Both the position numbers and the translations under genes were made by a program. This document shows positions 27,227 to 34,434 of a stretch of DNA of 64,000 nucleotides, in pieces. This stretch comes from Aquimonas sp. (lineage in GTDB: Bacteria; Pseudomonadota; Gammaproteobacteria; Xanthomonadales; Xanthomonadaceae), in NCBI GenBank assembly GCA_022241605.1, contig JAKOMQ010000008.1, positions 62,001 to 126,000 of the forward strand, written 5' to 3'. Position 1 is the stretch's first letter. Each line of letters starts with the position of its first letter. The notes under the pieces are model-generated. The model saw only the letters and a program-made list of their open reading frames with translations, made no database searches and was not told the DNA's origin.

Positions 27227-29882
27227 GCGGGGTGTCCTTGTCCATGGTGTCTGAAAGTGCATCGATCAGGGCCGCGCGCAGGGGCTCCAGCCGGTCTGGA
27301 TCAGTGATCGGCCGATCCTGCTCGTCGCTGATCTGGAAAAAGTCCTCGACCCGTTCGCCGAAGGTAGCGATTCGGGCGTCGTGCAGGCGCACGCCGTGCT
27401 CGCGCAACACCGCAGCAGCGCGCGCCAGCAGGCCGGGGCGATCCGTGCAGACGAGAGTCAGGCGGGTGCGGCCCTGAGCCGGATCGGCGCTGAACTCGAT
27501 CTGCACCGGGATCCGGAAATGGCGGAGCTGTCGCGGCACGATCCGGTTGGGCGGGCTGACCTCCGCGCCGATATCGGCAAGTGCCTCACGCAGGGACGCG
27601 GCCACGGTCGCCGCGCGACGCTCGGGCGAGACAAACTCCATGCCGGCGTCGAGCACCTGGAAGGTGTCGAGGCTGTAGCCGTTGGTGGAGGTGACGATGC
27701 GCGCCTCGGCAATGGACAGGCCGAGACGGTCAAGGGTGGCGGCCGCCACCGCGAACAGGCCATCGCGATCCGGCGAGTAGACAAATATCTCCAGCGCGCC
27801 GGACCGCGAGTGCGGACGGGCCAACACCAGCGGCTCGTGATCTCCCGTCGCGCCGCGCTGGGCGATGCCGCGGGTCTGCCAGGCGATCTGCTCCGGGCTG
27901 TAGCGCAGGAATCCCTCTGGCGGGAAGCCGGCCCACACGCGTTCGATTTCAGCCGCGTCAATGCCAGCCTCCAGCAGCCGCTCAAGCGCGGCAGCGCGGG
28001 TCTCGGCGATGCGCTCATCCGCATAGACGCGATTCTCCAGCCCACGTCGCAGCGCGAAGCGGGTGGCGCCGTGCAGGTCGGCCAGCAGGCGGTCCTTCCA
28101 TGCGTTCCACAGCTTGGGGCTGGTGCCAGCGATGTCCGCAACGGTCAGCAGATAGAGGTAATCGAGCCGTTCACGCTCACCGACCACGCCGGCGAAACGG
28201 GCGATCACCTCGGGGTCGGAGATGTCCTGGCGCTGGGCGGTGATGGACATCGAAAGGTGCTGGCGCACCAGCCATGCCACCAGGTCAGCGTCGGCGGTGG
28301 ACAGCCCGTGCTCGCGACAGAAGGTCAGCGCGTCCTCCGCTCCCAGGCTGGAGTGGTCCCCACCGCGGCCCTTTGCAATGTCGTGGAACAGCGCGCCAAG
28401 CAGCAGCAATTCGGGCTTGCGCAGGCGCGGCCACAGCTCGTGCGCCAATGCGAAGCGCTGCTTCGATTCCGGCTCGGAAAAACTCTCGATGTTCCGCAGC
28501 ACCATCAGCGTGTGCTGGTCCACGGTGTAGACATGGAACAGGTCGTACTGCATGCGCCCCGAGACGTTGCCGAAAGGCGGCAGATAGCGGGCCAGCACGC
28601 CGAGTTGCCACATCCGCGACAGCGTGGCCACCGGCTGTGGGCCGCGCAGCAGACGCATGAAGGCGGCCCGAACTTCGGGACGGGCGCGGAAGTCGTCATC
28701 GACCCGAGGCAATGCCTCACCCAGCGCACGCGCCGTGCTGGAATGCAGGCCCTTCAGCGAGGGATTGGCCGCCCACACCCGGAACAGCGCCAGAATCTTC
28801 AGCGGCTCGCTGCAGAACGCGGTTTCATCGAGCAGACGCAGATAGCCGCCGCCCGCCGCAAAGTCCTCGTCTAGCGGCTCGATGGCCGGCTCGCCCGTGA
28901 GGGATTCCTCGAAACGCTGCAGCAGGCGCGCATTCAAACGCAGCACCACCGCCACGCTGCGGAAGTAGCCCTGCATCAACTGCTCCACCGCGAGGTTGTC
29001 GGCGTGCTCGTCCTTGAAACCCAGCCGCTCCGACAGCGGCCGCTGGAAGTCGAACAGCAGGCGTTCCTCACGACGGCCGGAAACCAGGTGCAGGCCATAG
29101 CGCAGGTGCGAAAGCGCACGGCGCTCGCGTTCGAAGGCAATGAACTCGTCACCGCCAATGGCACCCAGCGGTTTGAGCTCGGCGATCTCGCGCACCCCAT
29201 AGATGCGCTGGGCCATCCAGGCCAGGGTGTGCAGGTCGCGCAGGCCGCCCGGACCCTCCTTGAGGTTGGGCTCCAGGTTGTAGGCGGTGTCGTTGTAGCG
29301 CGCATGGCGGGCGCGCTGCTCGGCGCGCTTGGCCTTGAAGAAGTCTTGCGGGCTCCAGAAGCCCTCGCTGCGCACGGCACGCGACAGCTGCTGGGCCGGT
29401 GCCGGGTCGCCGCAGATGAAGCGCAGCTCGCTGAGCGCGGTCGCTACGGTCGCGTCCTTGCGGCCTTCCTCCAGACACTGCGCGGTCGATCGCACCGCGT
29501 GCCCGGGCGCCAGGCTGGCGTCCCACAGCCGGGTCAGGAAGCGCTCGATGCTGGCCTGGCGCTCGCTGCAGATGTCGCCTTCGCAGAGCAACAGGATGTC
29601 CACGTCCGAATGCGGGAACAGCTCCCCGCGGCCAAAGCCTCCGGTGGCAAACAGGGCCAGCCCAGCGGTCGCGCCGAAGTCGCGCCGGTAGGCATCCGCG
29701 AGCAAGGTGTCGACCTGGGCGCTGCGATCCGCCAGCAGGCGATCGACGTCGATGCCGGCGTCGAAGCCGACCGCTCGACGGACATCGCCGGCCGCCAGCT
29801 CGGCCTTGGCAAGCGCCTGCCATGCGTCATCGCCAACCGCTGCGAGGCGCTGCCCCAGCCCGGCCAGCTCGCCCGTGCTCAC
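27201..29882 (-). CDS. glnD: GlnD, bifunctional [protein-PII] uridylyltransferase / uridylyl-removing enzyme
   Basis: GlnD senses glutamine and uridylylates or deuridylylates PII proteins, setting nitrogen metabolism. The 893 residues show a nucleotidyltransferase domain with [19 protein letters not shown] near residues 80-98 and an uncommon-to-lose middle domain. An HD domain follows ([15 protein letters not shown] near 500) for the removing activity, then two C-terminal ACT domains, one from about 690 and one from about 800 ([18 protein letters not shown]). The start is GTG, overlapping the map stop as GTGA. The gene order map-glnD-dapD is shared with many gammaproteobacteria. Confidence 0.96.
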
Positions 29883-30655
29883 GCCGGCATCCGCCCCTTG
29901 TCACCGAGCGTCAGCACATCGAAACCGGTCTCGGTGACCGCGATCATGTGCTCCCACTGTGCCGACAGCGAGCGGTCCTTGGTGACCACGGTCCAGCCAT
30001 CTGGCAGCAGGCGCGTATGGCGGGCGCCGGCGTTGATCATCGGCTCGATGGTGAAGGTCATGCCCGGCTTCAGCACGAGCCCGGTGCCCGGGATGCCGTA
30101 GTGGAGCACCTGCGGATCCTCGTGATACACCTGCCCGATGCCGTGCCCGCAGTACTCGCGCACCACCGAGAAACGCTCGGACTCCGCATAACTCTGGATA
30201 GCGTGGCCGATATCGCCCAAGGTGGCGCCCGGCCGCACCGTGCGGATTCCGCGCCACATCGCCTGGAAAGTGACATCGACCAGGCGCTTGGCCAGCACCG
30301 AGGGCTGGCCCACGAAGTACATGCGGCTGGTGTCGCCGTGCCAGCCATCCTTGATGACGGTGACATCGATGTTGATGATGTCGCCGTCCTTCAGCACCTT
30401 GGATTCGCTGGGGATGCCGTGGCAGATGACGTTGTTCACCGAGGTGCAGAGGGTCTTCGGGAAGCCGCGATAGCCCACGTTGGCCGGGATCGTGCCCTGC
30501 ACCTTGACGATGTGCTCGTGGCAGATCCGGTCCAACTCCTCGGTGCTGACGCCGGGGCGGACATGCGGGGTGATGATGTCGAGCACCTCGGCGGCCAGCC
30601 GGCCGGCCTCGCGCATCTGCTCGATCTGCTCTGGGGTCTTGACGGAAATGGCCAT
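29879..30655 (-). CDS. map: Map, type I methionine aminopeptidase
   Basis: Map removes the initiator methionine from nascent proteins. From ATG 30655 it has 258 residues; the track start seven codons upstream lacks family similarity. The five metal ligands are recognisable: two Asp in NIDVTVIKDGWHGDTSRM, His in CGHGIGQVYHE, Glu in TIEPM and Glu in the final MIAVTETGF. The gene is divergent from rpsB, but an Rhs-derived block of about 2.7 kb now lies between them. Confidence 0.96.
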   Translation of the reverse strand: MAISVKTPEQIEQMREAGRLAAEVLDIITPHVRPGVSTEELDRICHEHIVKVQGTIPANVGYRGFPKTLCTSVNNVICHGIPSESKVLKDGDIINIDVTVIKDGWHGDTSRMYFVGQPSVLAKRLVDVTFQAMWRGIRTVRPGATLGDIGHAIQSYAESERFSVVREYCGHGIGQVYHEDPQVLHYGIPGTGLVLKPGMTFTIEPMINAGARHTRLLPDGWTVVTKDRSLSAQWEHMIAVTETGFDVLTLGDKGRMPA

Positions 30656-30662
30656 ACGGCGA

Positions 30663-31345
30663 TTATCGGCCAGCACGGCCTGCGGGGGAAACTGCCAAAC
30701 GGACTGGTTCGGGCGTGATCCGAAAGGAGCGGCAGGCGCCCCACCATGTGACGCGGGCTAGCGGCTTCCGACAGGGCAACGCTGGCAGCACCCCAAGCTC
30801 GGGGTCGTTGACGCGACCGCCCATGTGGACCAAGCCCACCGAGTCCAGCTGCTCGTGCCCGGTGAAGCCGCGCGTGGTGTACGGCGGAATCACGAAGGCC
30901 GCCGCGCTGTTCCAGTCGTTGCCGTTGCGACGACCGCCGTGCGGATCGAAGCTCATCCGCTGCAGCACCGCGCCGGTGGCGCTGGCGATCACGCCTACCG
31001 AGCCCAGCGCATCGGTGAACAGGTACTGCTTCAGCGGCGCGCTGCCGTTGCTGTAGCGCGTTTCGATCAGCACGCCGAGCTGGCGGCGGTCCTCCACCAC
31101 CCCGTCGGGACGGGTGACCTCCTCGACGCTGCCAAAGGTGCGGGTGACTGTGATCTGCCCGTTGATGGTCTCGCGCCGCAGGTAGCGGCTGCCGTCGGGG
31201 GCGTAGGAGAGCTCCAGGTGGGCCGACGAAGATCGAATTCAAGGGCGGCATGCGGGCTGGCGTAACGCCCCACCCGGAGCTCCTGGCTGTCACCCAGGTA
31301 CGTGTTCGGCGGGGATCTGACACTTAGCGGTCTGTGTTGCTGCAA
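30663..31345 (-). pseudogene. Degraded Rhs/YD-repeat core fragment (copy B)
   Basis: On the minus strand two frames carry Rhs core sequence. The upstream one reads TYLGDSQELRVGRYASPH. After a shift near base 31215 the frame continues LELSYAPDGSRYLRRET, QYLFTDALGSVGVIAS and RGFTGHEQLDSVGLVHMGGRVNDPELG. The core then ends abruptly where RFLQPDP is expected, and the tail (PALPCRKPLARV) is unlike Rhs. It has no usable start and no toxin of its own. Bases 30792-31104 are a close copy of 32977-33289. It is best read as a displaced orphan Rhs tip left by an earlier toxin cassette. Confidence 0.8.
30792..31104. repeat. Direct repeat copy B (Rhs core)
   Basis: Aligned by hand without gaps to 32977-33289 at a constant offset of 2185 bases, with about 15 mismatches in 313. 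The two copies flank the toxin end and the immunity candidate, so recombination between them would delete both. Confidence 0.85.
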
Positions 31346-31800
31346 GCCAAGGCTATTCGACCCATGATCAAGCTAAACGCCTCTGGAGACACCGATGAGT
31401 CGTTACCTCGCTCGGTCATGCGCGACAGGTCCAAACCGTCAACAAAAAGACCTGTGCCATTCCTTCGACCGATAAAAACCCCACCAACCGATCCGTCATT
31501 ACCAAAATAAATAGGGCGAACTTCAGCCCCTCTTAATACGGTCGGCAACCCATCATCGAGAACCGATCGACGAATAGCTCCGTGCCACCCTGGAAACACA
31601 AGCCTCCCTAGCGTTCTTTCCTCATTGATCAGAATTCTTCCAAGGATCTTCTCGTCCGCCCAATCAAGCACGTCCTCTCTTACTCGATCGTTCTCCAAAA
31701 GCTCGCGCCAGTATGCGCACTCTCTGGCGTCGGAATGCTCATGACTGCACCCCACGAACATGAAGGTGATGCACGCAATCAAGAAAGGCCGACAGCACAT
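31324..31800 (-). CDS. Lipoprotein, candidate immunity protein for the Rhs toxin
   Basis: A 158-residue protein with a lipoprotein signal: a short hydrophobic stretch (FLIACITFMFVGC) with a lipobox before Cys18. No known domain was recognised. It starts one base after the toxin stop on the same strand, the position of an immunity gene in polymorphic-toxin loci. A membrane-anchored periplasmic location would fit a toxin acting in the periplasm or entering through it. Base composition is distinctly lower in GC (28 or 29 of 60 on two lines counted by hand) than the surrounding genes, which suggests recent transfer. The role is inferred from position only. Confidence 0.65.
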   Translation of the reverse strand: MCCRPFLIACITFMFVGCSHEHSDARECAYWRELLENDRVREDVLDWADEKILGRILINEERTLGRLVFPGWHGAIRRSVLDDGLPTVLRGAEVRPIYFGNDGSVGGVFIGRRNGTGLFVDGLDLSRMTERGNDSSVSPEAFSLIMGRIALACSNTDR

Positions 31801-31801
31801 A

Positions 31802-32749
31802 TTATCGCCCTCGCCTGTTGTAGAAATCGTAGCCGTATGCCGTCCACCTCAATCGATTCGGTATTCGGTCAGCCCCCTTAAATGCCAGATTGTAGGTAAC
31901 GACTGAGTTGTATGCGGTGCTAAAGTGGTTGCCGCGAGCGGCGTGGAGCATACCTTGATAAAGATAGTTTATGTCTCCGCCCACTTGAATTGCAGACAAC
32001 CCACCCGGCGCACCAACTATTCGAAACTGATCTCCGCCATAGCGCCCATAAAATACGCTATCGCCAGTAGCGTTTACGCCCCAAAGCACTTCTGAAAAGC
32101 GATTCAGCGACATATTTCGATAGCCTCCGGCTGCGGAAGATCGCATATCCAACATGCGCGCCTCCGTCTCCATTATGTAATGCAGCTCGTCCACGGTTAT
32201 TGATTTAACCCCATCCTCGCCTGCAGGCCGCTCAAGAATACCGCGAACACTGTCAAGACGCGAAGCCAATTCGTCAGACCAGAATGGCTCTTCTTGCTCC
32301 CTGCGGCTCGCTTGGGAGGCCCCCTCATGCGCCATCGTATTAAACGCAAACGACATCGCCGCAGTCACCGCCCCATTGGCAAACTTCCCTCCGCTCAAGC
32401 TCGATGCCGTGCCACCGATCATGGCATGCACCACGCCGCGGGCGGCTTGGGTCTCAATGCCCTGGGTCAGTGGGCCGGCGGCTTCGGAGAAGCCTGCGCT
32501 GGCAAAGCCATGCGCGAACTTGCCGCCCTGCAGGCTGCTGGTAATGCCGCCTGCGCTGCCGTGGGCCACGATCTTGCTGACCCGGCCGATGGTGTTGAGC
32601 TTGTCGCCTGTGCGCGCCCAGGCCGACGCCTGGGTGCCGGCATCGAAGTAGCTGCCGATCCCGAAGAACAACGCCCCTGAAAAGGCCCCGTACAAGCCGC
32701 CCTTCAGGCTGCCGCTCTGCACCGCACCGGCCGCGAATCCGCCGGCCAC
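31802..32749 (-). CDS. Rhs toxin C-terminal part (frame-separated from its core)
   Basis: The frame reads a small-residue-rich segment typical of the region after Rhs cores (GGLYGAFSGALFFGIGSYF and two SSLxGGKFAxG units), followed by about 165 polar residues. That variable end contains SITVDELHYIMETEARM, QVGGDINYLYQGM and a final AYGYDFYNRRGR, and is the likely toxic domain. I cannot assign it to a named toxin family. The track's GTG start is internal. Translated without the shift, the frame runs on from the core fragment at 32704-33285 (see the 8-G tract). GC falls towards the 3' end, matching the adjacent immunity gene. Confidence 0.65.
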   Translation of the reverse strand: MAGGFAAGAVQSGSLKGGLYGAFSGALFFGIGSYFDAGTQASAWARTGDKLNTIGRVSKIVAHGSAGGITSSLQGGKFAHGFASAGFSEAAGPLTQGIETQAARGVVHAMIGGTASSLSGGKFANGAVTAAMSFAFNTMAHEGASQASRREQEEPFWSDELASRLDSVRGILERPAGEDGVKSITVDELHYIMETEARMLDMRSSAAGGYRNMSLNRFSEVLWGVNATGDSVFYGRYGGDQFRIVGAPGGLSAIQVGGDINYLYQGMLHAARGNHFSTAYNSVVTYNLAFKGADRIPNRLRWTAYGYDFYNRRGR

Positions 32750-32807
32750 CGTGACCGCAAAGGCTTGGCCGGTGCCGAGCGTCGTTCCCCAAATGCCGCC
32801 GGCCCAG

Positions 32808-32815
32808 CCCCCCCC
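32808..32815. other. Homopolymer tract (8 C on plus, 8 G on coding strand) at the Rhs frameshift
   Basis: The run sits exactly where the Rhs core frame and the toxin frame part. Adding one base restores a continuous frame across both ORFs. It could be a slippage or phase-variation site, a fixed mutation, or a sequencing error. Confidence 0.75.
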
Positions 32816-32976
32816 GTGTACACCGTGATCGCCACCGCCACCACCGTGCGCAGCAGCTGGCCCAGCGACAGGTAGCCGCTGGGGTCGGTCAGCGCCAGCG
32901 GGTTGTTCAGCACATAGCTGTAGCGGTTCAGGCCCTGCAGGCCGGCATCCAGCATCGGGTCCGGCTGCAGGAAGCG

Positions 32977-33289
32977 CCCAAGCTCAGGGTCATAGACGCG
33001 AGCGCCCATGTGGACCAAGCCCACCGAGTCCAGCTGCTCGTGCCCGGTGAAGCCGCGCGTGGTGTATGGCGGAATCACGAAGGCCGCCGCGCTGTTCCAG
33101 TCGTTGGCGTTGCGACGGCCGCCGTGCGGATCGAAGCTCATCCGCTGCAGCACCGCGCCGGTGGCGCTGGCGATCACGTCCACCGAGCCCAGCGCATCGG
33201 TGAACAGGTACTGCTTCAGCGGGGCGATGCCGTTGCTGTAGCGCGCTTCAATCAGCACGCCGAGCTGACGGCGGTCCTCCATCACCCCG
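32977..33289. repeat. Direct repeat copy A (Rhs core)
   Basis: Partner of 30792-31104, encoding the conserved Rhs core tip; about 95% identical by hand count. Confidence 0.85.
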
Positions 33290-33350
33290 CCCGGCCCTGC
33301 GCTCCTTCACGCTTCTGGAGCTCCGGGTGACCGTGGTCTGGCCTGCGGGT

Positions 33351-33379
33351 TTGCCAGGCAGGAGCCCATGGGCTATGCT
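33351..33379 (+). promoter_or_regulatory. Predicted sigma-70 promoter of rpsB-tsf
   Basis: TTGCCA, a 17-base spacer and TATGCT give a strong consensus-like promoter about 215 bases before the rpsB start. The Rhs homology fades where this promoter begins. Confidence 0.65.
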
Positions 33380-33385
33380 TCCAAG

Positions 33386-33594
33386 GCTTTGTCGGCCATT
33401 TCGGTGGCCTGCATAGCCGCCCACGCCGGGCGCACCGGCGAATTCACACACAGGCAGCACCCCGTCCGACGGGGTCCCGCAGGTAGCCTCCAGGCTGGCT
33501 GCGGGCGTCGGGCGCGAGCCCTGTGGAGGCCCAACCCCAGGACCTTTCTCCGCCCTATATGTCGGCGGATTGGTTCGTATTTCAGGAGCACACC
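33386..33594 (+). promoter_or_regulatory. Long rpsB 5' leader
   Basis: About 210 untranslated bases follow the predicted start point. They contain a short hairpin at 33476-33492 (ACCCCGT-CCG-ACGGGGT) and a GC-rich region around 33490-33540. In other proteobacteria the rpsB leader binds ribosomal protein S2 for autoregulation. That role is plausible here but the structure was not modelled. Confidence 0.4.
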
Positions 33595-34434
33595 ATGCCT
33601 CAGGTCACCATGCGTCAGATGCTGGAAGCCGGCGTTCATTTCGGCCACCAGACCCGTTACTGGAACCCGAAGATGGGCGAGTACATCTTCGGCGCGCGCG
33701 GCAAGATCCACATCATCAACCTCGAGAAGACCGTGCCGCTGTTCAGCGACGCGATGAACTTCCTCTCGGGCATCGCCCAGAAGCGCGGCACCGTCCTGTT
33801 TGTCGGCACCAAGCGGTCCGCCCGCGAAGCCATCAAGGAAGAAGCCACCCGCTGCGGGCAGCCTTTCGTGGCGCAGCGCTGGTTGGGCGGCATGCTGACC
33901 AACTTCCGCACCGTGAAGGGCTCGATCTCGCGCCTGAAGGAGCTGGAAGCGGCCGCCACCGACGGCACCTTCGAGAAGCTGGTCAAGCACGAAGTGCTGC
34001 AGCTGCAGCGCGAGACCGACAAGCTGGAAGCCTCGATCGGCGGCATCAAGAACATGGGCGGGCTGCCTGACGCGCTGTTCGTGATCGATATCGGCCACGA
34101 AAATATCGCCATCCTGGAAGCCAAGAAGTTGGGCATCCCGGTGGTCGCCGTGGTCGACACCAACTATGACCCGAGCCTCGTCGACTACCCGATCCCGGGC
34201 AACGACGACGCCATCCGCGCCGTGCAGCTGTACACCCGCGCGGCTGCCGATGCCGTCCTCGAAGGCCGCGCCGCGGCCCCGCAGAGCGCCCGCATGGACG
34301 ACGAGTTCGTCGAGCTGGACGCCGAGGGCAACCCCGTCGCGAAGAGCGACGACGAGCGCAAGCCGGCCCGTCGCCCGGCCCCCGGCAACAAGCGTCCCGG
34401 CGGCGGCCAGCGCCGCGGCCGCGACGGCGAGTAA
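33595..34434 (+). CDS. rpsB: 30S ribosomal protein S2
   Basis: S2 binds late to the 30S subunit between head and body. From the ATG at 33595, preceded by AGGAGCA, the protein is 279 residues and begins [20 protein letters not shown]. The signature regions [12 protein letters not shown] and [12 protein letters not shown] are present. The C-terminus carries a 40-residue Arg/Lys/Gly-rich extension ([11 protein letters not shown]) beyond the Escherichia coli length. tsf follows after 135 bases with a stem-loop between. Confidence 0.97.

Follow-up and report, generated by a model that had tools for sequence, protein, structure and literature searches.

In Salmonella Typhimurium LT2, orphan rhs-CT/rhsI modules are devoid of initiation and export signals and gain activity by recombining with the main rhs gene (PMC3967940), and strings of displaced or dissociated rhs tips with core fragments have been described in Enterobacteriaceae (PMC2935791). 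In both reports, the modules follow an intact gene that belongs to the same clade. A TcdB/TcaC export class has also been distinguished among polymorphic toxins (PMC3482391). Here, we describe an Rhs-derived insert between map and rpsB in a 64-kb window of Aquimonas sp. (Xanthomonadaceae; GCA_022241605.1), which corresponds to bases 62001–126000 of contig C50 (136,917 bp; the 137-kb contig). The assembly comprises 2.98 Mb in 75 contigs and is 75% complete, which bounds every genome-wide negative reported below. We consider it probable (roughly 0.8) that the insert is a solitary displaced (orphan) module, consisting of an Rhs C-terminal toxin region (Rhs-CT) and its immunity gene, of the SpvB/TcB-like Rhs type.

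Boundaries and layout of the insert

The map and rpsB genes are 2,942 bp apart in the window genome, whereas in the two congeners with the locus (G002 and G003) they are separated by 329 and 333 bp and the site is empty. The left flank aligned with both congeners through 30706 and the right flank with G003 from 33331. Because the alignments to the empty sites stop and start at these points, the insert was placed at ~30707–33344 (~2.6 kb), with a loss of ~20 bp of native spacer relative to G003. A sequence-only reading had proposed a detached orphan cassette at 30656–33350, and the empty site in both comparable congeners bears out an insertion. The block itself is real, but it starts ~50 bp later than proposed, as 30653–30706 is the native map leader with the map promoter, and it ends at ~33331–33344. 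All four parts named in that reading were recovered on the minus strand and in the order given, running toward map: a 5′-truncated Rhs core tip, a 315-codon open reading frame (ORF) with linker/pretoxin and toxin, a gene for a lipoprotein of 158 amino acids (aa), and a second core tip. The features are as follows.

29879..30652, minus: map (methionine aminopeptidase), native left flank; 92–93% aa identity to the congeners
30653..30706, minus: native map leader with a −10-like ATAAT box at ~30661–30666; aligns to the G002 and G003 empty sites through 30706
30707..30785, strand not assigned: insert stretch between the left junction and core fragment 2; single copy in the genome
30786..31238, minus: core fragment 2, an Rhs core tip ending after DPELG, without the DPxG end; 55% aa identity to residues 853–1007 of the G003 Rhs; repeat copy at 30792–31091
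31324..31800, minus: lipoprotein gene, 158 aa, lipobox-like FVGC, probable periplasmic immunity protein; a homologue directly follows this toxin at eight further loci
31802..32335, minus: putative C-terminal toxin domain, 177 aa, motif G-x-D-I-N-Y-x-x-Q-G-M; leave-one-out hidden Markov model (HMM) E = 4e-20
32336..32749, minus: linker and pretoxin region, DUF637-like (weak DUF637 match, E = 0.0016, below cut-off); 59% aa identity to the G003 Rhs linker
~32797..32812, minus: frameshift between the core 1 and toxin frames at an 8-base G-run, where two frame matches to one relative meet
32813..33344, minus: core fragment 1, 5′-truncated, with the Rhs_assc_core end DPSGY and without its own start codon or N-terminal domain; TIGR03696 E = 1e-21, 64% aa identity to G003
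33331..33379, plus: right junction (33331–33344; G003 homology from 33331) and retained rpsB promoter TTGCCA-17-TATGCT (33351–33379; promoter scan)
33441..33535, plus: native t44-like rpsB leader RNA; RF00127 32.5 bits, E = 2.3e-4, below the gathering score of 44
33595..34434, plus: rpsB (ribosomal protein S2), native right flank; 93% aa identity to the congeners

The two core tips form a direct repeat of 300 bp with 95% identity, and differ by seven synonymous and six non-synonymous codons over 100 codons. Core tip 1 matched Rhs_assc_core with 77 bits (cut-off, 32.5), whereas the partial match of core tip 2 (16 bits) fell below the cut-off. The pretoxin region scored 18.7 bits against DUF637 (PF04830; gathering score, 26.6) and is similar to that domain at most. 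G+C content was 51–54% across the toxin and lipoprotein genes versus 65–70% in the surroundings. Homology between the core tips reaches ~33344 and overlaps the native alignment by ~14 bp at the right end, which may reflect junction microhomology or chance. When the insert DNA was sought elsewhere in the genome there was no match, indicating that the module occurs once; a separate search for a second copy of 30707–30785 (using 30700–30795) also returned none.

The insert lies between the divergent promoters of map and rpsB, both of which are retained together with the t44-like rpsB leader. An ATTAT sequence 15–18 bp from the start of the interval in both congeners, and in most other short intervals, marks a conserved map box. 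The expression signals of both genes are intact, which would explain why the insert is tolerated. Among 29 relatives surveyed, the interval measured 249–511 bp in 20, seven carried 1.1–6.7 kb of other DNA there, and two had no map within the fetched stretch. By these figures, the housekeeping site that the earlier reading called conserved is not strictly so. Rather, the interval accepts accessory DNA within the family, with Rhs DNA seen there only in the window genome: the core tip, toxin and lipoprotein had no match in the nine stretches that were occupied or lacked map. The interval may be a recurrent insertion site. By eye, some ORFs of the seven occupied intervals (L091-L094, L096-L098) look fimbrial, dioxygenase-like or metallo-beta-lactamase-like.

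The toxin domain and its exported partner

Searches of Pfam, NCBIfam, PHROGs and PADLOC returned nothing for the toxin domain. Its relatives form the C-terminal ends of Rhs proteins from Lysobacter sp. yr284, Pseudoxanthomonas sp. Root630 and Luteimonas endophytica, as well as from several further genomes, where some copies are broken; none was found in plasmids, phages or viral contigs. A leave-one-out HMM connected the window domain to these relatives (E = 4e-20). In all nine loci examined, including the one in the window, the gene following the toxin encodes a lipoprotein, membrane-anchored protein or signal-peptide protein of a single family with two invariant cysteines (signal types were assigned by eye). 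The window lipoprotein scored against the other eight partners with a leave-one-out E of 2.4e-08, and the best of 5,000 shuffled decoys reached 0.29. This constant, exported partner with paired cysteines suggests that the lipoprotein is a periplasmic immunity protein and that the toxin acts in the periplasm or envelope. AlphaFold2 models of the toxin (four sequences; predicted local distance difference test [pLDDT] score, 52.8; no credible PDB match) and of the immunity protein (pLDDT, 62.5) were too weak, so no catalytic activity is claimed and no target is named.

Two candidate relationships of the toxin were discarded. Membership of Ntox44 (PF15607) was ruled out, as neither HMM nor profile–profile tests revealed homology, and PDB profile matches to SAKe designs were discounted since they span ~25 residues with no stretch significant alone. 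Elsewhere in the same genome, an Ntox44 domain (L107; G000:C39:27847-28182; E = 1.6e-22) is followed by a small lipoprotein gene and probably forms a toxin–immunity pair. A short contig of another genome (G823:C308; L127 and L115) carries an immunity–toxin–immunity string of the window family followed by an Rhs-like repeat piece, apparently a second orphan array. Distant lipoproteins of the immunity family also occur with no recognised toxin alongside in two relatives (L125 in G265 and L126 in G409), one of them downstream of PAAR-like sequence.

The toxin is probably not made at present. No start codon, promoter or secretion region for it was found at the locus, and the 8-base G-run breaks the core 1–toxin fusion frame; this break may represent sequencing error, decay or phase variation. 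Upstream of the lipoprotein gene, a sigma-70 scan likewise showed nothing promoter-like. The absence of a promoter, PAAR region and full core from the insert had been noted from the sequence and was confirmed, although the missing PAAR means little if, as the full-length relatives suggest, the carrier is SpvB/TcB-like.

Parentage and origin of the module

The putative SpvB/TcB-like carrier type was assigned by similarity of the core and linker alone. Congeners encode Rhs proteins with related core tips elsewhere in their genomes, of 1,409 aa (L075, which shares the linker as well) and 3,007 aa (L076), and the Luteimonas protein bearing the same toxin domain has 2,385 aa with SpvB, FG-GAP, TcdB_midN and RHS regions. 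The N-terminal SpvB and beta-propeller (FG-GAP) regions are absent from the fragment in the window. When the 1,409-aa protein was searched against the window genome, strong matches were confined to the insert, where they covered both core tips and the linker, the rest being weak; its residues 1–852 had no strong match in the assembly. The other Rhs genes of this genome (on contigs C41, C46 and C47) fall into different core groups. One contig (C46; L074) holds a tandem pair of Rhs genes that closely resemble each other; a small gene for an exported protein follows each of them, and next comes an IS110-type transposase-like ORF (by eye). Another (C47; L072) has tandem Rhs tips with differing ends and a transposase-like ORF in between.

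Orphans usually lie downstream of a full-length Rhs gene from their own clade, although this does not strictly define them. No such gene was found in the window or the assembly; the module is therefore called a solitary orphan. The expectation that a full-length Rhs sharing the core tip would lie elsewhere in the genome was thus not borne out. The parent gene may be missing from the organism or lie in the unassembled quarter of the genome, and its absence is not proven. The orphan interpretation itself held up: no full Rhs gene of the same clade was found in the window, and the block was not seen at the site in the relatives surveyed. What remains at the locus is a core fragment and C-terminal toxin region far below full-gene length, without N-terminal or initiation signals and with a broken fusion frame, directly followed by a putative immunity gene of the family that accompanies this toxin elsewhere.

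The sequence shows that ~2.6 kb was inserted at a site that is empty in congeners, with core repeats at both ends. Under this interpretation, the toxin would strike a competitor's periplasm or envelope, and the lipoprotein would neutralise it in the periplasm. The core tips could permit recombination onto any full-length Rhs gene of their type, and a circle bearing the toxin and immunity genes could be lost if the tips recombined with each other. Several points weigh against the displaced-module interpretation. With no parent of the same type found in the assembly, the route by recombination may be closed to the module in this genome. The cassette may simply be decaying, given its broken frame and the degenerate state of core fragment 2 and of the 5′ end of core 1. 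In addition, the 79 bp at 30707–30785 have no explanation, and toxicity, immunity and periplasmic location are all putative.

Other origins were weighed against the same evidence. A complete Rhs locus might once have occupied the map–rpsB interval, with a deletion then taking away its N-terminal part. A second, downstream core tip is what chains of displaced tips leave behind (PMC2935791), and accessory DNA does enter the interval in seven of 29 relatives. However, the junction lies between two native promoters with little native spacer gone, the congeners are empty, and none of the nine occupied or map-lacking stretches matches any part of the module; we regard such a remnant as doubtful. Misjoining of repeat-rich Rhs sequence into the interval during assembly is very improbable: core repeats are classic misassembly points, and the assembly is fragmented and incomplete, with ambiguous bases (X in translation) in another Rhs contig, but both junctions are unique and lie in the 137-kb contig, the module is single-copy, and this core type occurs on no other contig.

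The lipoprotein gene could alternatively have been selected as an immunity island, expressed from its own promoter and kept against toxin-bearing kin, with the toxin part as debris. Its ORF is intact with the conserved cysteines while the core is degraded, and the two relatives with distant family members and no recognised toxin beside them, one near PAAR-like sequence, fit this idea. Yet the 315-codon toxin ORF is equally intact and no promoter-like site precedes the lipoprotein gene, and we find a selected island unlikely. The displaced-module interpretation can also be extended to a mobile solitary Rhs tip unit flanked by core repeats. Such a unit would settle away from Rhs loci in a safe site between promoters, carry new families of periplasm-acting toxin and lipoprotein immunity protein, and serve as a dispersed reservoir for tip exchange. 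This extension is speculative and, as a whole, improbable.

Comparison with described systems

The locus provides an orphan Rhs tip away from a same-type Rhs locus with both junctions fixed by empty-site comparison, and so bears on how tips travel between genomes. The recurring toxin and its exported partner are a candidate new envelope-acting antibacterial toxin and periplasmic antidote. Ntox44 offers a parallel, in that its members are small helical toxins at Rhs tips whose neighbouring gene product is exported or anchored, and its G-x-x-I-x-Y motif is superficially similar; the window domain shares no detectable homology with it at the HMM or profile–profile level. The core tip and linker share 59–64% identity with a congener Rhs of the SpvB/TcdB type (TcB-like), to which the export class of PMC3482391 corresponds, but the insert retains no more than the final portion of such a protein. 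The closest likeness is to the modules of PMC3967940 and PMC2935791, which share with the window cassette a core fragment followed by toxin and immunity gene, the lack of initiation and export signals, a tip of low G+C content, direct core repeats, an extra tipless core fragment and frameshifts. Unlike those modules, the window cassette stands alone, with no gene of the same type in the assembly. The anatomy of orphan modules has already been published; the window cassette is set apart by its solitary placement in the available assembly and by a toxin–immunity pair undescribed in Pfam, NCBIfam and PHROGs.
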